NCBI RefSeq assembly: GCF_000425905.1
Contig: NZ_KE384473.1
Span: 312,693 to 376,692, forward strand
Direction: 5' to 3'
Length of the DNA stretch: 64,000 nt
From: Lactobacillus psittaci DSM 15354
GTDB lineage: Bacteria > Bacillota > Bacilli > Lactobacillales > Lactobacillaceae
In this document: positions 12,524 to 28,417 of the stretch, piece after piece
Numbering within the stretch: position 1 is the stretch's first letter
Layout: every line of letters starts with the position of its first letter
Notes under the pieces: generated by a model
What the model saw: the letters and a program-made list of their open reading frames with translations, nothing else
Told to the model about the DNA's origin: nothing
Database searches by the model: none
Made by a program: the position numbers and the translations under genes

Positions 12524-14052
12524 TAGTTGTTCTTTGTTTTATCTTTTGAGATTGAACCTTGTCCAGCGGTAATAAGTACGTACTGTTTTCCACTTTTAAC
12601 TACTTTACCATTAGTATAAGTTAAGACTTGAGTTCGAGTATCTTTTTTGTGTTTGAAAATATAAGTAACTTTATAATCAATTCGACTTGTCGCATTTCCA
12701 AGTGGTAAGATCCGATTAATTTTAACTTTCATCTTGTATGAACGAATTTTTGAATCTTTATCAAATCCTTGAATCATTTTCTTTAAATCTTGATAGCTTG
12801 AGTTATTTGAACCATTATTAAAATACTTAGTTTTAATTTTCTTGTTAAAGATGCGTTCTAATAAGTCTTGAGCATCATCTTCTTTAATAAGCCCAGCCCA
12901 ACTTGGCTCAAGAATGTATCTACCCTTTTTATAGTTTAACTGCTTCCCAAGTTGCTTATTTTTGGCAAATAATGCAAGGCTATTAGTTATGTCAGAAGTA
13001 ACGTTTTGATTATCTAAGTTGTATTTGACATATAAGAGCGTTTTTGAATTGATAGGATATGATTTTAGATGGCCAATTCCGTCTTTATTTAAATGGGCCA
13101 CCAATTTATCATTGATATAAACTTTCCCGTATGGGACAGACTTAATGGTAAAACTAAGGGTCTTAATGTCAAGATTACTTTGCTTGTTTTGATTTAAAGT
13201 CAAAACTTCACCTGTAGTTAAACTTCGACCTGCAACTTTAGTTTTAATCTTGGCCTGATATTGGCCAAAGAAAAGGCCCCTAATCGTCTTCGAATAGTTC
13301 GTATTTGACTTGGAAATTACCCCATAGTATCTGTCATTTAAGTAAAGTTTAGAGTTAGGATGGTTAGTTTTGGCGGTTAAATTGTAAGTTGGTACCAAGA
13401 GTTTATATTTGGGATATACTAGATAATATCCTTCTTGTATAAGCTTGATACCTTGGTAGCTTTTCCCTTGGGTCAAAGCTTTAATAAGTTGGTTCTTTTG
13501 CTTAGTTGAAGTTTTTAAATAAAGCTGAAAAGGCTTAATATTAGAGCTATTTATCTCTGCATTGCTTTTCCCAGTAGTAATATATTTAACTAGACCTGTT
13601 TGGTTGGGATTTTCTAAATATGCACTAATTCGGCTTAATTGATTACTTCGAGAATAATAACTCATACCAGCAAAAAAGCTAAAAAGTACGATTGCTCCAC
13701 CAATTCCCATAATTAGCCACACGCGACGCTTTTTTGGTGATAGTTTTGCGTGTTTTAATGGTTTAAATAGATTTTGATAATTAAACTTCTGATTGAATTT
13801 GATAAATTCGTGATGAATCGGCTCGTCAATTTCATCTTTGAATTCAATGAATTTACTGAAAAAGTTACCAGTTTTCTTTTGCTTTCTCAATTTCTCTACT
13901 TGTTTGAATTCTTGACGTGTTAAAGGTTGTGACTTTCTTTTAGAATTGTTTCCCGGTATAATTCTTGTTTTTTGGTTTGCACCACAGTTGGTACAATAGA
14001 TATCCCCTTTTTTCAGGCGATGTCCGCAGTAAAAACAATATCGTTCAGCCAA
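12523..14052 (-). CDS. Zinc-ribbon membrane protein, TcaA/YvbJ-like
   Basis: 509 residues. The N-terminus has a zinc ribbon with C6, C9, C20 and C23. A basic linker follows, then one membrane span (about 111-132) and a large C-terminal part predicted outside the cell. The layout matches the TcaA/YvbJ family, in which TcaA of Staphylococcus is linked to glycopeptide response. The distal 120 residues look like an NTF2-like domain. The start is TTG 14052, 7 nt after GAGGAGG at 14060-14066. It is a clear paralogue of the protein at 15111-16586, sharing a SYYS..NQ.SRIS motif just after the span. It is transcribed separately from that pair, because a terminator lies at 14147-14176. Role is inferred to be envelope-related. 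Confidence 0.72.
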   Translation of the reverse strand: MAERYCFYCGHRLKKGDIYCTNCGANQKTRIIPGNNSKRKSQPLTRQEFKQVEKLRKQKKTGNFFSKFIEFKDEIDEPIHHEFIKFNQKFNYQNLFKPLKHAKLSPKKRRVWLIMGIGGAIVLFSFFAGMSYYSRSNQLSRISAYLENPNQTGLVKYITTGKSNAEINSSNIKPFQLYLKTSTKQKNQLIKALTQGKSYQGIKLIQEGYYLVYPKYKLLVPTYNLTAKTNHPNSKLYLNDRYYGVISKSNTNYSKTIRGLFFGQYQAKIKTKVAGRSLTTGEVLTLNQNKQSNLDIKTLSFTIKSVPYGKVYINDKLVAHLNKDGIGHLKSYPINSKTLLYVKYNLDNQNVTSDITNSLALFAKNKQLGKQLNYKKGRYILEPSWAGLIKEDDAQDLLERIFNKKIKTKYFNNGSNNSSYQDLKKMIQGFDKDSKIRSYKMKVKINRILPLGNATSRIDYKVTYIFKHKKDTRTQVLTYTNGKVVKSGKQYVLITAGQGSISKDKTKNN

Positions 14053-19007: not shown

Positions 19008-20693
19008 ATGGCTTTTGATGGTTTATTTATTCATTCAATATTGACTAAGCTCTCCCCTATTCTTGAGACTGGTCGTCTTTCAAAAATTTATCAACCATTT
19101 GCACATGATTTAATCTTAGTTTTTCGAAAAAATCGCAAAAATTACCAATTATTATTGTCAATAAATCCTCAATATCCAAGATTTTATCTTACTAATCAAT
19201 CAATTAATAATCCGGACAAGGCACCAACTTTTGTTATGGTTTTAAGAAAGTACCTTGAAGGGTCAATTTTACAAAAAATTGAACAAGTTGGACAAGATAG
19301 AATTGTTAATTTCTTTTTCTCGAATCGAAATGAGCTTGGGGATGAAGTTGAATTAGTACTTTCATTAGAATTAATGGGTCGGCATAGTAACGTGATTTTA
19401 TATAATAAGCAAGATGGTAAAATTATTGACCTATTGAAGAGAGTTAATCCTGATGACAATAGAGCTAGATTGCTTTTACCTAAGGCAAAATATGAATTAC
19501 CCCCACTGAATCCAGGACTTAATGGTTTTAGTCTTTCTGAAAATGATTTTAATAAATTGGCTAAACAAATAGAGCCGATGGCTTTTGCACAAAAAGTTAG
19601 TGGACTCGATCGCGATGACCGTCTTGAGTTAACAGGTTATCTTGAAGATGATTATAGTTATGATAGCTTTAAGACTTTTATGGGGCACTTTGATAATCCA
19701 AAAGGCTATGTTTTTAGAAATGCTAAACGGAAAGAAAAGTTTTTTGTATATCTGCCATATCATTTAGGCTTAGAATTATATAATAAAAATGATGATGTTT
19801 TCGCCGCTTTAGATGAGTTTTATCATGAGATGGAGAATCGAGATTGGGTACGACAAAGAGCTCGAGTTATTTTGAATTTAGTTAATAATGAGCAAAAGAA
19901 ATTAAGTAAAAAGGTTATTAAACTACGTAGACAACTTGATTTAGCTGAAAATTCTGAAGATTACCGCATCAAAGGTGAAATTTTAAATGCATATCTGCAT
20001 GAGGTCAAAACTGGGATGACCAAGGTTAGTTTGCCAAATTATTATCAGGAAAATGCACCGATTGAGATTAAACTTGATCCTGCTCTCTCTCCTGCTAGAA
20101 ATGCACAAAAATATTTTACTAAGTATCAAAAATTAAGAAATTCAATCAAACACGTTCAAGAGCAGATTAAAATTGCAAATGATAACTTAGTTTATTTTGA
20201 CTCAATTGAAACTGCTATTAATAATGCCGAACCACAAGATATCGATGCTATTCGTGATGAATTGATAGCACAAGGATACTTACATAGCCAAGTAAAAGTC
20301 AGAAAAAAGAAGATTACTGAAAAGACCTTGAACCAGTTTAAGTTAAGCTCAGGCAAATTAGTCTTAGTTGGAAAAAATAACTATCAAAATGATTGGTTGA
20401 CTTTTAAAAAGGCTGATAAGTTCTATTATTGGTTCCACGTAAAAAACATTCCGGGCTCTCATTGTATTTTGTGTGATCAAAATCCAACTGATGAAGATAT
20501 TGCTGAAACTGCAGAAATTGCGGCCTACTTTTCTAAGGCTAGACTTTCAGGGCATGTGCAAGTTGATTATGTGCAAGTAAAACGAGTAAAAAAGCCTAAT
20601 GGTGCTAAGCCAGGTTTTGTAATTTATACTGGACAAAATTCAATTGAAACGACTCCTGTTGAAGAAGATGTTTTAAGAAAACGAATAAATTAA
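19008..20693 (+). CDS. rqcH: Ribosome quality control protein RqcH (NFACT family, also called FbpA)
   Basis: 561 residues. RqcH binds stalled 50S-peptidyl-tRNA complexes and recruits Ala-tRNA to add C-terminal alanine tails. Older annotations call it a fibronectin-binding protein. The NFACT-N domain begins MAFDGLFIHS and carries D97-R98 in QVGQDRIV, the pair needed for tailing. A central coiled-coil-like region spans about 280-420. The NFACT-R domain near the C-terminus shows WFHVKNIPGSH. The start ATG 19008 follows AGAGGTGG at 18996-19003. It is a single gene on the + strand, convergent with carB. Identification is firm; any surface-adhesin role is not visible in the sequence (no signal peptide). 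Confidence 0.93.
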   Translation: MAFDGLFIHSILTKLSPILETGRLSKIYQPFAHDLILVFRKNRKNYQLLLSINPQYPRFYLTNQSINNPDKAPTFVMVLRKYLEGSILQKIEQVGQDRIVNFFFSNRNELGDEVELVLSLELMGRHSNVILYNKQDGKIIDLLKRVNPDDNRARLLLPKAKYELPPLNPGLNGFSLSENDFNKLAKQIEPMAFAQKVSGLDRDDRLELTGYLEDDYSYDSFKTFMGHFDNPKGYVFRNAKRKEKFFVYLPYHLGLELYNKNDDVFAALDEFYHEMENRDWVRQRARVILNLVNNEQKKLSKKVIKLRRQLDLAENSEDYRIKGEILNAYLHEVKTGMTKVSLPNYYQENAPIEIKLDPALSPARNAQKYFTKYQKLRNSIKHVQEQIKIANDNLVYFDSIETAINNAEPQDIDAIRDELIAQGYLHSQVKVRKKKITEKTLNQFKLSSGKLVLVGKNNYQNDWLTFKKADKFYYWFHVKNIPGSHCILCDQNPTDEDIAETAEIAAYFSKARLSGHVQVDYVQVKRVKKPNGAKPGFVIYTGQNSIETTPVEEDVLRKRIN

Positions 20694-20757: not shown

Positions 20758-23700
20758 TTAAATTGGTTGCGTAGTTAAAGCAAGTGACTCTAGGACAGCT
20801 AAAATTAATTTAGCTGTTTGCAAACTACTGAAAACCGGGATGTGTGTACTTAAAGCTTGATCTCGAATTTGAATTGCGTCATGACTAGCGTTGTCAGACA
20901 AGTTGGTAATATTAATTACCATAACAATCTTGTGTGATGCAATCTTTTCGAGCAAGTTATGTTGATCTTCTTGCACCTTTTTAACGATACCAGTAGTAAT
21001 TCCAGCTTCAGCTAAGATTGTAGCAGTCCCTTCAGTGGCTACTAGTTTAAAGCCTAACCGATGGAATCGTTTGGCTAGAGCGATAGTATTTTGTTTATCT
21101 TCATCTCTAACTGAAATAAAAATCGTGCCATAACTTGGAATATTTAAATTACTACCTTCATATCCCTTGAACAAGGCCTTGGAAAGTTGGGTATCTCGAC
21201 CCATAACTGAACCTGAAGATTTCATTTTTGAATCAAAGGTATTGTCAGATTCATAACCTATGTAAGAAAATACCGGCATCTTAACGTGAATTAGGTTACT
21301 TACATTCCAAATGCCGGGTTCAATCCCCTGTTCTTTCAAACTTTGACCAAGTAAACATTTGGTTGTGATTGCAACTAAGTCTTTATTTAATGATTTAGAT
21401 AAAAATGCTAGGTTATGACCGGCGTATGTTTTAACTTGTAAAATAAAGAAACGTTTTTTTGCATATAAGAAGTGTAAATTAAACATTCCTGGCATCTCAA
21501 ATTTAGAGATTAATTCTTGTGATACCTTTACTAAGAGGCTCATTTGTTCAGAAGTTAAATTTTGAGGTTTAAAAACCGCAATTGAATCACTAGCATGAGA
21601 TCCAGTTTGTTCAAGGTGTTCAATAATTCCAGGAATAGTAACCTCTTTACCGTCTGAGATTGCAGTAACTTCGTATTTTCGTCCCTCAATAAAACTAGAA
21701 ATAGTAATTTCATCTAGGTTATTTTCATCAATGTATTTTTCAAGAGCAGGAATATCATAAACAACAGCACTCTTTAATTTTATTTTATTTGCTTTGCCTC
21801 CAATCAGTACTGGGAAGCCATGAGATTTGCTGAATTCAATTGCTTGTGCACGCTGACTAAGCTTAGCATGTGGGACAACAGCAATATTAGAATCATTAAT
21901 ATTCAATACTTGCCCCGCTATTTGTTGGCTGTAATCTCCCTGTCCCAGTATTTCTAATCCTGATTCGGCAAAGTCAGCCCGCATTTGATTGACTTCTTTA
22001 CCCGAAAATTGAGTTAAGACCTGCTTAATTCCTTCCCGGTTAACAATTTCACGAATATTGCTTATTGTAATTGGTTCAAAGTAAGTACGGTCTACTAACT
22101 CATAAGCCGTCGATACTGCTTCAGGGTTATTGCTAATCAAAATCGTTTTAATATTATTAGCTTTAAGAGTCTTAATTGCGTGATACAACATGTAATCATA
22201 TTCACTAGTTAAACTCACTTGAATGGGATGCATACCAATAATTAGAACTTTGTTTTCCCCATCTGTTATCGGACTAATCTCATTTCTACAGTCATAAGCG
22301 CTGTAGCAAACTGAATATTTAGCAGGATATAAACCACTACTACCATCTAATGATAAATACGCAGGTAAAATATTTTCTTCATGTCGAATTTTTTCAATTT
22401 CATGACCTGTTTTATTAGTAAAAAGACTAATCAATACATCCGAAAAGCCATATTTTTTAGCCATTTTAAGACTTTCAAGCGTGAAACTAGCTTGTAACTG
22501 TTTAATTATTTTGATAATATTGCTCAGTTTTTCAAAGAAAATAGGATGAATACGAGTAACTTCGTGGATTGCGACATAATCAATACCTTGATAAATTGCT
22601 GCTAAAGTAATAATTAGATGTTGTTCATTTGGCTCACTTAAATCAGCCAAAATTTCTTCATTAGATTTTTTTAGCTCACCAAAAAAGACCTTTTGAAATA
22701 GGTGTAAATCGAAACATGAATCAAGTGATTTTAAAAAGGCAGCTTCAAAATTGCGCCCAATATTAATACTCTCTCCGCTAGAGCGCATACGGTCACTTAA
22801 TTTATAATGATTTAGTCCAGATTCATTAAATGAAAAGTATGGAGCCTTGACTGCAACTACATCTAATACTGGTTCTATTGCTGCATTTAAGCCAGTAAGT
22901 GGTTGAACAATTTCATTAAGATTATAGCCTAAGGCAATTTTAGCTAAAACATAACCAACATCGTACATACCTACTCTTTTACTTAATAGACTTGATCTAG
23001 TTAAACGTTCCTTAATGGTTAAAATCTTAGCTTTGATACTAGTATCAGAGTGACTGACGGCAAAGTGAATACTTAGAAAGCCTTTAACATTTAAACTATT
23101 CATGACCTTTTTAGTTAGCTTTCGTAGTTGCCGGACATGATCATTATTTAAAGTTAATGCAGGAGCAACAATAAAGGAGTCGCCTGAATTAATTGAAACA
23201 CTTTCAATGCAAGATGCAATGTTCAAGAAATTGAAATTACCATTATTATCGCGAATCACGTCGACAATAATTTCTTCCCAATCAGATAAGTCTTCAGTCA
23301 GCCGGTAATTAGTTAATTTAAATTGTTCAATCATGCTTTCTTGCTTAAAGAAACTTTCTAATGACTTGACATCTTGGAATTTAAAGTGTTCATTTCGAAT
23401 GTATTGATGATATTTAGTAACTAATACTGGAAAGTTAACTTGGTTTAAATGATCCAAGATAGTTTCTTTATCTGCTTCAAGATGCCAAGATTCAGATGTA
23501 GGAAACTTATGTTTTTGTAAGAAAGCAATTTGGTCTTTGTGGGACAAAATATTCAAGAGTTTAGTATTAGTGGTCATGAGTTTAATGCCCATCTCTTGAA
23601 TTATGCCATCTTCAACTAATTCTTTAGCAACTTTTAAGCCATTTGTACTACCATAAGCGGTCACAATTGCATCTGGCTCTTCCATTCGTAAGATTCGTTT

Positions 23701-23922
23701 CATAAATGACAAGGTCATTGGCTCTAAGTAAACAGTGACTCCCTTTTGGCGGTCACCAGCAACTGTTGCTGGGTTAGGGTTGACTAAAACAACATGTACA
23801 TCTTCCTCTTGAAAGGCCCTGATTGCAGCTTCTGTATATACGTCCATTTCAGCTACGTTTCCAACAATATTAGGCCCACTACCAAGTACTAATACCTTGT
23901 TTAAATCATTTTCTAGTGGCAT
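20758..23922 (-). CDS. carB: Carbamoyl-phosphate synthase large subunit homologue, catalytically degenerate
   Basis: 1054 residues with the full CarB layout: two synthetase halves and a C-terminal MGS-like regulatory domain (about 925-1045). Fold-level identity is clear (GDSFIVAPALTL, SRSS-like segment, EGRKYEVTAI, ATEGTA). Catalytic positions are not. In the N half the E-x-N-P-R metal site reads T302-I-K304-E-R; in the C half E-V-N-P-R reads Q829-V-K831-T-Y. The GGQT motifs read GSTN and SGKE, and the glycine-rich ATP loop is gone. The regulatory domain is better kept. The start is ATG 23922, 7 nt after GGAG (23930-23933); it overlaps carA by 17 nt. It should not make carbamoyl phosphate. 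Either an exapted pseudoenzyme or a decaying gene; no frameshift or stop is present. Confidence 0.82.
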   Translation of the reverse strand: MPLENDLNKVLVLGSGPNIVGNVAEMDVYTEAAIRAFQEEDVHVVLVNPNPATVAGDRQKGVTVYLEPMTLSFMKRILRMEEPDAIVTAYGSTNGLKVAKELVEDGIIQEMGIKLMTTNTKLLNILSHKDQIAFLQKHKFPTSESWHLEADKETILDHLNQVNFPVLVTKYHQYIRNEHFKFQDVKSLESFFKQESMIEQFKLTNYRLTEDLSDWEEIIVDVIRDNNGNFNFLNIASCIESVSINSGDSFIVAPALTLNNDHVRQLRKLTKKVMNSLNVKGFLSIHFAVSHSDTSIKAKILTIKERLTRSSLLSKRVGMYDVGYVLAKIALGYNLNEIVQPLTGLNAAIEPVLDVVAVKAPYFSFNESGLNHYKLSDRMRSSGESINIGRNFEAAFLKSLDSCFDLHLFQKVFFGELKKSNEEILADLSEPNEQHLIITLAAIYQGIDYVAIHEVTRIHPIFFEKLSNIIKIIKQLQASFTLESLKMAKKYGFSDVLISLFTNKTGHEIEKIRHEENILPAYLSLDGSSGLYPAKYSVCYSAYDCRNEISPITDGENKVLIIGMHPIQVSLTSEYDYMLYHAIKTLKANNIKTILISNNPEAVSTAYELVDRTYFEPITISNIREIVNREGIKQVLTQFSGKEVNQMRADFAESGLEILGQGDYSQQIAGQVLNINDSNIAVVPHAKLSQRAQAIEFSKSHGFPVLIGGKANKIKLKSAVVYDIPALEKYIDENNLDEITISSFIEGRKYEVTAISDGKEVTIPGIIEHLEQTGSHASDSIAVFKPQNLTSEQMSLLVKVSQELISKFEMPGMFNLHFLYAKKRFFILQVKTYAGHNLAFLSKSLNKDLVAITTKCLLGQSLKEQGIEPGIWNVSNLIHVKMPVFSYIGYESDNTFDSKMKSSGSVMGRDTQLSKALFKGYEGSNLNIPSYGTIFISVRDEDKQNTIALAKRFHRLGFKLVATEGTATILAEAGITTGIVKKVQEDQHNLLEKIASHKIVMVINITNLSDNASHDAIQIRDQALSTHIPVFSSLQTAKLILAVLESLALTTQPI

Positions 23923-24982
23923 TATCAAGCTCCATTAAATTAATAAATTGATCAAAAATTGGTAAAGCATCAAAACTACCAGGTGCCCCCTCTGGATTGA
24001 AGGCAGTTGCTAATATCTTATCATCTTGAAGATAATATCCTGCAAGCAAATCTGTATATAAATCATAATAAGCTTCAGATAAGTTTAAATTACCATTTTC
24101 GCTAAGTACTAATTGATTTAAATTAACAGAAGTTTGCCAAATAACATTAGTATTTTGCTGAATAACCGGATAATTGGTCCCATTATAAGGTTTTGGTAAA
24201 TCAATTATTTCCAAATTTAAATAAGAAGAAATAACTAGAAAACCTAACCCGATAGCCAATATTGGCAACTTTTGATAGAAATGATCTAAAATTGGTGTCA
24301 AAGCTTTATAGACTTCATTAACAGTCCCTGGCCCATTGGAAATGACAATTCCATCGGGCTTTAAATTTTGAATATCTTGGGGATTAGAATTATAAGGAAC
24401 TACAACTACATTGGCCTTGTGTAAAGATAACTCTCTTAACATTGAATGCTTTAGGCCTAAATCAATTACGACGATTGTCTTACCGATATTAGGTGCGGCA
24501 TAAGAATTATTAGTTGATACTTGTGCTGTTTTATTTTTGGGTAAAACTAAGGCTCTAATTTGATCAAAGGCATGTTCATCGTTAGCATCCATAATAGATG
24601 CTTTTAATTTTTTGTGCTCAGCAAGTTTATGAGCTAAGGCTCTGGTGTCAACACCATAAATTGCTGGTATCTTTTTTTCTTTTAGAAAATAATTTAATTC
24701 CTGAAAATTAGGTGAATCGGAAATTTTATTAGCGATTTCGTTACAGATAATACCTCTAACTGTAGGATCAATTGCTTCATAGTCAATTGAATTGATACCA
24801 GTCGTCCCAATTACAGGAGTAGTAAAAACCAAAATTCGGCCGTTATTAGTAGGATCAGTTAAGGCCTCTTGATAGCCATAATTACTTGTTTGAATTGCTA
24901 GTTCACCTGTAGAAATTGTCTCAGCGCCAAAGCTTTGACCAGCAAAAGAACTACCATCTTCTAAAATTAAATATCTTTTCAT
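23906..24982 (-). CDS. carA: Carbamoyl-phosphate synthase small subunit homologue, inactive glutaminase
   Basis: 358 residues, normal CarA length, with the N-terminal CPSase small-subunit domain (LEDGSSFAG, GYQEALTDP, GVDTRAL) and a class I glutamine amidotransferase domain. The triad is broken. The nucleophile elbow G-x-C-L-G-H-Q reads A-I-G245-L-G-F-L, so Cys is Gly. The catalytic His is Asn329 in FNPEGAPG; only Glu331 remains. The QNHG segment is also lost. LSNGPGDP is partly kept as ISNGPGT. It begins 12 nt after rluD and has no PyrR-type leader of its own. With the equally degenerate carB it forms a pair that may still associate but cannot hydrolyse glutamine. Confidence 0.82.
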   Translation of the reverse strand: MKRYLILEDGSSFAGQSFGAETISTGELAIQTSNYGYQEALTDPTNNGRILVFTTPVIGTTGINSIDYEAIDPTVRGIICNEIANKISDSPNFQELNYFLKEKKIPAIYGVDTRALAHKLAEHKKLKASIMDANDEHAFDQIRALVLPKNKTAQVSTNNSYAAPNIGKTIVVIDLGLKHSMLRELSLHKANVVVVPYNSNPQDIQNLKPDGIVISNGPGTVNEVYKALTPILDHFYQKLPILAIGLGFLVISSYLNLEIIDLPKPYNGTNYPVIQQNTNVIWQTSVNLNQLVLSENGNLNLSEAYYDLYTDLLAGYYLQDDKILATAFNPEGAPGSFDALPIFDQFINLMELDNATRK

Positions 24983-24994
24983 TCTGTAACTTTT

Positions 24995-25906
24995 CTATTT
25001 TTTTAAACGTCTTAGCTTCGTAAGTGTGTCTTCAAAAATTTTAGGAACTGGTCGTGAAAATTCTAGCAGTTTTCCAGTTGTAGGTTGTTTAAAGCCTAAA
25101 ATTTCTGCATGAAGAAATTGACCATTACCTTTTAAAGTCTTTTTTGGTCCATATAAGGGATCTCCTGCTAAGGGATGTCCAATATATTTCATGTGAACTC
25201 TGATTTGATGAGTTCTGCCAGTTTCTAACCGACAACTAATCAAGCTATAACCAGGAAATTGTTCTAAAACTTTAAAATGGGTAACTGCATATTTCCCTCC
25301 TTCTACGACTGCCATCTTCTTTCGATCTTGGGGATTTCTGGCAATTGGTGCCGTGATGGTACCATTACTTTCTGTAAAATTACCATGGACAATTGCAAGA
25401 TAAACTCGTTTATTAGTCTTATGTGCAAGTTGGTCTTCAAGACTAGCTCGCGCTTTGGGATTTTTGGCAATCATTAATAAGCCAGAAGTATCCTTATCGA
25501 TTCTATGGACAATACCAGGACGAAAACCTTCAGGGCTTTGAGCTAATTCTTTTGTGTGAAATAGTAAAGCATTTACTAAAGTATGATCTGGATGCCCAGC
25601 AGAGGGATGCACAACCATTCCTTGAGGTTTATTAACTACAATTACATCTTGATCTTCATAAACAATATCTAAAGGAATATTTTCAGCTTCTAGGGATAAA
25701 GGTTTTAGTTTAGGTTCATGAACTATAATTTTATCGCCAGCATTGACCTTATAGGAAGATTTTTCGCTTTTTTCGTTGACTAAAACATTACCTTCAGTGA
25801 TTAATTCTTGAATGCGTGAACGAGAAAGATCAGTTAGTTCTTGAGCCAATACCTTGTCTAAACGACCTTTTTGATCTGAAATAACGATTTCATGATTAGT
25901 TGGCAT
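24995..25906 (-). CDS. rluD: RluD-family 23S rRNA/tRNA pseudouridine synthase
   Basis: 303 residues: an N-terminal S4 RNA-binding domain (about 10-65) and a pseudouridine synthase domain with the catalytic D137 in the HRIDKDTSG motif. Later family blocks VYLAIVHG and LETGRTHQIRVH are intact. It converts uridines in RNA; the exact sites are inferred from the RluD/YlyB family. Longer starts exist, but AAGGGG at 25914-25919 is correctly spaced (7 nt) only for ATG 25906. It overlaps the lspA end by 11 nt. lspA-rluD pairs are standard in Firmicutes. Confidence 0.92.
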   Translation of the reverse strand: MPTNHEIVISDQKGRLDKVLAQELTDLSRSRIQELITEGNVLVNEKSEKSSYKVNAGDKIIVHEPKLKPLSLEAENIPLDIVYEDQDVIVVNKPQGMVVHPSAGHPDHTLVNALLFHTKELAQSPEGFRPGIVHRIDKDTSGLLMIAKNPKARASLEDQLAHKTNKRVYLAIVHGNFTESNGTITAPIARNPQDRKKMAVVEGGKYAVTHFKVLEQFPGYSLISCRLETGRTHQIRVHMKYIGHPLAGDPLYGPKKTLKGNGQFLHAEILGFKQPTTGKLLEFSRPVPKIFEDTLTKLRRLKK

Positions 25907-26390
25907 TTTCATTCCCCTTTTTCTTTTGCTCTTGCTCACTATAAAAAATAAGATAAAGCATAATCAAGAAAATTCCAATTGAAATTGCGGAATCAGCAAT
26001 ATTAAAGATGTTGAAATTAATAAAGTCTAATTGAATCATGTCGATTACATATTTGAGGTGCAAACGATCGATAAAATTACCTAAAATACCACCAATCACG
26101 AAACTTAATCCTAGGTTAAAAATAATTTTCTTGTATTTTTTGTTAAAGAGATAATATAAGCAGGCTCCTAAAGCAAAGATACTAATCAAATAAAATAACC
26201 ACATTTGTCCTGTTAAAATATTCCAGGCTGCTCCATAATTGCGAACATAAGTTAATGAAACAATATGCTTAATAACTACAACTTGATTGTTAATAAGATC
26301 AGGACTAGAGAAGAGATTTACGACGTAATACTTTAAACTTTGATCACAGATAACGATTAAAAGCGAAATAAGTAAATAAAGTAATTGCAT
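25896..26390 (-). CDS. lspA: Lipoprotein signal peptidase (signal peptidase II)
   Basis: 164 residues with four membrane segments. It cleaves the signal peptide of prolipoproteins after lipid attachment. The aspartyl active-site pair is D117 in the block GNFIDR...VIDM and D133 in FNIADSA. The NYGAAWNI motif near residue 51 is the third signature. Its ATG overlaps the fhs stop by one base (TAATG), indicating translational coupling. Confidence 0.94.
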   Translation of the reverse strand: MQLLYLLISLLIVICDQSLKYYVVNLFSSPDLINNQVVVIKHIVSLTYVRNYGAAWNILTGQMWLFYLISIFALGACLYYLFNKKYKKIIFNLGLSFVIGGILGNFIDRLHLKYVIDMIQLDFINFNIFNIADSAISIGIFLIMLYLIFYSEQEQKKKGNENAN

Positions 26391-28069: not shown

Positions 28070-28417
28070 CTACCCTTTCTTGCTAAAAACCATAAAAGTT
28101 AGTATATCGTACTTAGAAATTTCAAGTCGATAAATTTTAAAAATCCACCATTGTTTAATATACTTCGGCTTTTGGGATAATTCTTTCTTTTTGCGATAAG
28201 GTAACTTTAGAAAACAGGCTTCTTTAGTTTCTTTAACATATGAGGTTAAAGAAGTATAAGTGGCAATTGCTATAAAAGCAAGGCACAAATATACCGCTGG
28301 CCAAACAATAACCTTGTTTCCTTCAAAAGCGATAATTAAGCCAATTAATAAAATTAAGGTAAGCCAGCTATAATAAATTAAACCTAATCTTCCTAAAAAT
28401 ATAATGTGTTTTTTCAT
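28070..28417 (-). CDS. Small membrane protein, 115 residues
   Basis: Unrecognised. Two hydrophobic segments (about residues 9-30 and 37-58) are followed by a basic, Lys/Tyr-rich tail of about 55 residues that probably faces the cytoplasm. The gene starts 29 nt after an extended -10 element, with GAGGTGG upstream, and ends 7 nt before fhs. It is therefore the first gene of the fhs-lspA-rluD-carAB operon. No enzyme motif is visible. Confidence 0.6.
   Translation of the reverse strand: MKKHIIFLGRLGLIYYSWLTLILLIGLIIAFEGNKVIVWPAVYLCLAFIAIATYTSLTSYVKETKEACFLKLPYRKKKELSQKPKYIKQWWIFKIYRLEISKYDILTFMVFSKKG

Follow-up and report, generated by a model that had tools for sequence, protein, structure and literature searches.

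The window analysed here, a 64,000-nucleotide stretch of the Lactobacillus psittaci DSM 15354 genome (contig NZ_KE384473.1, positions 312,693 to 376,692), contains two adjacent genes, carA′ and carB′, that encode homologues of the small and large subunits of bacterial carbamoyl-phosphate synthase (CPS). Comparison of the pair with its relatives strongly supports a conserved but catalytically dead CarA′–CarB′ complex. An earlier note on this DNA had singled out the large subunit as a full-length CarB homologue with both ATP-grasp sites destroyed; the feature is larger than that, the adjacent CarA being dead too and the trait being genus-wide. The relevant elements are given below, residues being matched to E. 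coli by alignment.

20758..23928, minus strand: carB′, CarB-like large subunit, 1,056 amino acids from TTG 23928
23906..24982, minus strand: carA′, CarA-like small subunit, 358 amino acids; overlaps the start of carB′
24248..24250, minus strand: CarA′ G245, in place of E. coli Cys269
23996..23998, minus strand: CarA′ N329, in place of E. coli His353
23011..23019, minus strand: CarB′ T302–K304, in place of E. coli E299–N301, N half
21430..21438, minus strand: CarB′ Q829–K831, in place of E. coli E841–N843, C half
20830..21084, minus strand: methylglyoxal synthase (MGS)-like domain, residues 949–1033 from the TTG (Pfam PF02142), with the uridine/inosine monophosphate (UMP/IMP) pocket residues retained

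Read from an alternative start, ATG 23922, the carB′ frame has 1,054 codons and is open throughout. The Pfam domains of CarB′ follow the standard CarB order, residues 3–1030 can be aligned to E. coli CarB structures, and Pfam together with full-length alignment finds the CarA–CarB domain set complete, confirming that the size and domain order of CarB have been kept. Identity between CarB′ and the catalytic CarB of the same genus is about 31%. The pair scores above the NCBIfam cut-offs NF003671 and NF009475 and below those of TIGR01369 (640.8 vs 1027) and TIGR01368 (259.1 vs 307.35). Because each subunit clears an NCBI equivalog cut-off, both are likely to be annotated in databases as active enzyme.

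Residues were tabulated for 75 CarB′ and 75 CarA′ sequences (72 from Lactobacillus including the window, two from group g28 and one from g40) and for 28 catalytic pairs, with two truncated copies (G039 and G062) left out; carA′ and carB′ were adjacent in all 75 pairs read. Positions are given in E. coli numbering unless counted from ATG 23922. Counted in the latter way, the T302/K304 and Q829/K831 substitutions of the earlier note are exact, and they align with E299/N301 and E841/N843, which, like the other large-subunit positions discussed here, we take to have catalytic roles. The window protein also lacks R129, R169, Q285, the G175/G176 loop, R715, D753, E761, Q829, R845 and R848 (E. coli positions), and the claim that both halves are destroyed therefore stands; the alignment is loose around R129, R169, R675 and R715, so that single letters there vary between alignments. 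In the C half the replacements are strikingly uniform. D753S, E761K, S789A, E841Q, N843K and R848H occur in 75/75 orthologs, and Q829H and R845Y each in 73/75. The idea that the catalytic Glu/Asn residues are merely shifted is ruled out, since position 841 is Gln and position 843 Lys in every ortholog and the original residues are absent from the alignment. The N half is dead as well, yet its replacement residues vary: position 285 is His in 73/75, position 299 is Glu in none of the 75, and Asn is found at 301 in a single sequence. Sites at least 95% fixed in both CarB′ and catalytic CarB, to different residues, number 18 in the C-half ATP-grasp domain, 11 in the N-half domain and two in the MGS domain.

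The small subunit has fared no better. CarA′ carries C269G, Q273L and H353N in 75/75 sequences and H272F in 73/75, and the window protein has all four (Gly for Cys269, Leu for Gln273, Asn for His353 and Phe for His272). Cys269 and His353 are identified as the catalytic residues of the small subunit in a review (PMC6245113). Since CarA′ is without the glutaminase Cys and His, and CarB′ without both sets of ATP-grasp residues, none of the three active sites has its catalytic residues any longer.

The stripped pair is nevertheless almost universal in the genus. A CarB′ ortholog (at least 49% identity) is present in 74 of 75 Lactobacillus genomes, the exception (G045) being 59% complete; 71 of these matches are full-length open frames, two are cut at contig ends (G039 and G062) and one is frameshifted (G016). 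This sole frameshifted copy (L131, G016:C72) reads as broken inside the MGS domain, in a genome without a catalytic CarB. Outside Lactobacillus, orthologs were found in g28 (two genomes) and g40 (one) among 151 genomes searched. Among the 60 good genomes (completeness of 90% or more and contamination of 5% or less, tallied by eye from match lists), all 60 have CarB′; 45 also have a full-length catalytic CarB, two (G008 and G055) have a broken one, and 13, including the present genome, have no match to it. Over all 75 genus genomes, 51 have a full-length catalytic CarB as well as CarB′. The carbamoyltransferase N domain has no match in 8 of the 60. In the L. psittaci genome (99.86% complete), the second catalytic carB for which the earlier note proposed a search was not found, and the sole match to a PyrR query was weak (6.9e-8, 26% identity). 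This genome has one carbamoyltransferase N-domain match, which is probably not PyrB, because its score of 158 bits differs from the 112–130 bits of matches beside catalytic pyr operons. Since CarA′–CarB′ persists where catalytic CarB and carbamoyltransferase are missing, carbamoyl-phosphate supply cannot explain its retention.

The earlier note had argued for selection from the length of the open frame, naming as signs of simple decay a ratio of nonsynonymous to synonymous substitution rates (dN/dS) near 1 and frameshifts in sister strains. By the Nei–Gojobori method (NG86), dN/dS for CarB′ had a median of 0.058 and a maximum of 0.082 over 26 pairs with dS of 0.1–1, and for CarA′ a median of 0.027 and a maximum of 0.078 over 45 pairs, the pairs not being independent of one another. 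The pooled value for CarB′ was 0.057 overall, 0.043 in the C-half ATP-grasp domain, 0.040 in the MGS domain and 0.123 in the oligomerisation domain; for catalytic CarB it was 0.035 (35 pairs). G040/G056, the only close pair in which both species are without catalytic CarB, gave 0.073. These codon comparisons, far below 1 and accompanied by one frameshifted copy in 74 genus matches, show strong purifying selection on both genes.

The surroundings of the pair bear on its origin. Three neighbours in the window were assigned by Pfam:

24995..25939, minus strand: rluD-like RNA pseudouridine synthase, 12 nt upstream of carA′; ancestral neighbour
25896..26390, minus strand: lspA (signal peptidase II); ancestral neighbour
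19008..20693, plus strand: NFACT protein of the rqcH/FbpA-like kind, convergent; lies at the far boundary of the ancestral pyr locus

Because the rluD–carA′ gap is 12 nt, the two genes of the pair overlap, and carB′ is followed by a hairpin and T run that by eye resemble a terminator, the pair is probably co-transcribed with lspA–rluD in the window. In 70 of the 73 loci with both readable, the gene directly before carA′ is rluD (exceptions L108, L134 and L135), and most loci have lspA before rluD and a convergent rqcH-like gene after carB′. At this place, four other genera (L193, L197, L201 and L203) carry lspA-rluD-pyrR-pyrP-pyrB-pyrC-carA-carB-...-rqcH with catalytic residues intact; L255 likewise has a catalytic operon there, its stretch beginning at rluD. 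The dead pair itself sits within lspA-rluD-pyrR-pyrP-carA′-carB′ in g40 and within lspA-rluD-pyrP-carA′-carB′ in g28, preceded in each case by a PyrR leader (RF00515). Since the same neighbours flank a full catalytic pyr operon in other genera, the position is inherited: the carA′–carB′ locus is the ancestral pyr-operon site, from which pyrR, pyrP and the leader have disappeared in Lactobacillus proper. Two local observations may be recorded here. In one species (L108, G009:C5) a 624-amino-acid sulfatase-family gene (PF00884; 9971-11842, minus strand) stands between rluD and carA′. In the window, a 115-amino-acid protein without a Pfam match is encoded beside fhs (28070-28417, minus strand), and many Lactobacillus loci have blast matches to it close to the corresponding position.

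Dead CarAB pairs are also found at this site elsewhere in the family. In four further groups (g15, g22, g11 and G107, the last belonging to g34), carA-carB is bordered by the rluD side and by rqcH, while pyrB, pyrC and pyrD are absent and catalytic residues are missing. The sample comprises 8 g15 genomes (among 378) and 3 g22 genomes, all read, the g11 genome G084, and G107, whose contig is cut within pyrP. CarA has C269G in g15, g22 and g11, together with H353D, H353Y and H353D respectively; G107 retains Cys269 and has H353L and E355N. CarB is altered in both halves in g15, g11 and G107, and some replacements recur, E761K being shared by Lactobacillus, g15 and G107, and N843K with R845Y by Lactobacillus and G107; basic residues also appear at position 829 (Q829R in g15, Q829K in g11). 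The G107 locus (L248, G107:C41:55000-67748) is a fifth dead lineage, with pyrP-carA-carB and then rqcH where its g34 relatives L193 and L255 carry the catalytic operon. CarB of g22 (L155, L156, L253, L259 and L260) retains all N-half residues examined, with an intact carboxyphosphate site, and has a destroyed C half; from this residue pattern it might bind bicarbonate and ATP and act as a carbon sensor or futile ATPase.

pyrP is present in 4/8 g15 loci, in 3/3 g22 loci, in g11 and in G107. A PyrR leader lies upstream of the dead carAB in g11, and at the expected place, below the gathering score, in one locus each of g15 (41.8 bits) and g22 (40.0 bits); none was found at gathering score in g15 locus L256 or in the cut G107 contig. 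L256 also has, between carB′ and rqcH (13652-13794, minus strand), an Rfam match to the Streptococcus small RNA SpF66 (RF02442, 44 bits, gathering 42). No second CarB was found at the cut-offs used in 4/8 g15 genomes or in G107. Synonymous sites are saturated in most g15 and g22 pairs. Outside the family, catalytic residues were present in 24/24 CarB read (order-level matches); further dead lineages may exist within it, because residues were checked in only part of the family's CarB.

Whether catalysis was lost once or repeatedly is suggested differently by different placements. The dead rows cluster in trees (Shimodaira–Hasegawa-like approximate likelihood ratio support of 95 for CarB, or 97 with G107, and 94/92 for CarA), although the program warned of long branches meeting. 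Placed alone, CarB of g11, g15 and g22 joins pyr-locus CarB (L197, L201 and L203), that of G107 joins its own genus, and Lactobacillus CarB′ groups outside all 16 catalytic family rows given. For CarA, an approximately unbiased test did not reject one clade of dead rows including G107 (p 0.517).

Against this background of loss, the regulatory domain stands out. The MGS domain, which the earlier note had called better preserved, is the best-preserved part of CarB′: its mean identity is 0.744, close to the 0.751 of catalytic CarB, whereas the N-half ATP-grasp domain has 0.575 vs 0.912 (same 45 species, those fetched out of 51 with both full-length copies). Among the 75 CarB′, K954 is kept in 74 and T974, T977, K993 and N1015 in 73 each, and the window protein has all five; K954, T974 and N1015 are positions of the UMP/IMP pocket. 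T977 and K993 of the E. coli enzyme are reported in the review cited above to be crucial for its inhibition by UMP and for the binding of UMP (PMC6245113). A structure prediction (four rows) had a mean predicted local distance difference score of 43.9 and a predicted template modelling score of 0.31, and was not used.

These results lead us to a proposal on which we are evenly divided, namely that CarA′–CarB′ is a pseudoenzyme complex, descended from CPS, whose task is to sense pyrimidine nucleotides and regulate a partner. Both the sensing and the existence of a regulated partner are things we infer from conserved residues and gene context. The complex would descend from the CPS of the pyrimidine operon and bind UMP (or IMP) at its MGS domain. 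As in the living enzyme, the signal would then reach the ATP-grasp domain of the C half. There an invariant set of residues, Lys761 and Lys843 among them, stands in for the metal ligands, and the pocket may accommodate a nucleotide or some other anion, with no Mg2+ and no turnover. The ligand-dependent shape or oligomeric state could then control a putative partner that acts in the uptake or salvage of pyrimidines or in nucleotide balance. The results support the earlier note's suggestion of a non-catalytic role, for which it had named a scaffold, a sensor and a nucleotide-binding regulator; of these we favour nucleotide sensing because the pocket is kept and because relatives place the pair in a PyrR/uracil-permease context. 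A broader version, which we advance tentatively and rather doubt, is that the pyr-locus CPS of Lactobacillaceae has a regulatory function separable from catalysis, in which a pyrimidine-nucleotide signal would travel from the MGS domain through CarA–CarB to a partner that may serve the uptake or salvage of uracil. In lineages that had a catalytic carAB at another site, or had stopped needing one, the resident copy would have been stripped, perhaps repeatedly, and kept as a sensor, the Lys/Arg gains around the old Mg-ATP site making a metal-free ligand pocket.

Several observations weigh against a nucleotide sensor. The fixed C-half pocket would also suit a new enzyme activity. No pyrR, pyrP or PyrR leader was found at the Lactobacillus locus (the window, and a leader scan of nine other loci at gathering score), and since 4/8 g15 loci are also without pyrP, the link to uracil permease is not universal. 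The MGS pocket is partly changed in other dead CarB (K954/K993 in g15, K993/N1015 in g22), and because it is eroded in some catalytic pyr-type CarB too (e.g. L158 and L160–L162), its state is no clean guide to UMP control.

The chief rival is a new enzymatic activity: the C half would have been remodelled to catalyse another reaction, perhaps one that needs no metal, and CarA′ and the N half would be structural. Fixation of the C-half replacements in 75/75, whereas the N half varies, is in its favour, but both acidic metal ligands are missing, and the remaining dead lineages at this locus have different C-half residues, a pattern that does not point to a single new chemistry; on balance we think it unlikely. 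Somewhat less probable again is a scaffold or regulator unrelated to nucleotides, for instance of the translation-linked neighbours rluD or rqcH. It would suit the direct adjacency of rluD in 70/73 loci and the probable co-transcription with lspA–rluD, but that position is inherited, the same neighbours surrounding the catalytic pyr operon in other genera, and the MGS pocket is kept.

The pair could also be a structural partner or decoy of catalytic CarAB, tuning its activity in mixed oligomers. Coexistence of both in 51/75 genomes would permit this, and E. coli CPS dimers and tetramers are stated in the same review to form in response to effectors (PMC6245113). We nonetheless find it improbable, as CarB′ is retained in 13/60 good genomes without catalytic CarB, including this one, and dN/dS is low in G040/G056. 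Slow decay of a pseudogene, finally, is scarcely credible. The drift of the N half and the frameshift in the MGS part of G016 are what decay would produce, but 71/74 genus matches are full-length and open, and the live copy has been lost more often than the dead one. The low dN/dS (~0.06), the fixed replacements and the retention across genomes led us to reject it.

CPS is a textbook enzyme. It follows from the likely annotation of the pair as enzyme that metabolic models of lactobacilli may credit species with a carbamoyl-phosphate synthesis that is absent there. A Lactobacillus acidophilus transcriptome paper treats both carAB pairs of that species as CPS (PMC10609339). If CarA′–CarB′ is indeed a sensor, the pair isolates an unrecognised regulatory role of CPS.

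Among open-licence PubMed Central papers we found no report of a whole CarAB pair retained as a pseudoenzyme. CarA′–CarB′ shares with bacterial CPS (E. coli CarA–CarB; PDB 1bxr, 1jdb and others) its two subunits, domain order, length and MGS nucleotide pocket. Unlike the E. coli enzyme, it is without catalytic residues at all three active sites. Mitochondrial CPS I has a glutaminase-like domain with no catalytic Cys, retained in a structural role, but both its ATP-grasp sites are active, unlike those of CarB′. That enzyme (PDB 5dot, 6uel) was found as a homologue. The dead CarAB of g11, g15, g22 and G107 resemble CarA′–CarB′ in their neighbours, open frames and catalytically stripped subunits, but differ in their replacement residues, in the intact N half of g22 and in the retained Cys269 of G107. 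The arginine-type CarAB of Lactobacillaceae (L143–L150 and L254) is, like CarA′–CarB′, a second CarAB pair in its genome with the same fold by sequence, and in the four cases checked by Pfam it is flanked by a semialdehyde dehydrogenase (argC-like) or a carbamoyltransferase. The window pair is not of this type, having no arg neighbours, lost catalytic residues and a retained UMP pocket. Indeed, arginine-type CarB (L143–L146, L148–L150 and L254) keeps its catalytic residues (two with Asp for Glu841) and has lost the MGS pocket, and is thus the mirror image of CarB′.

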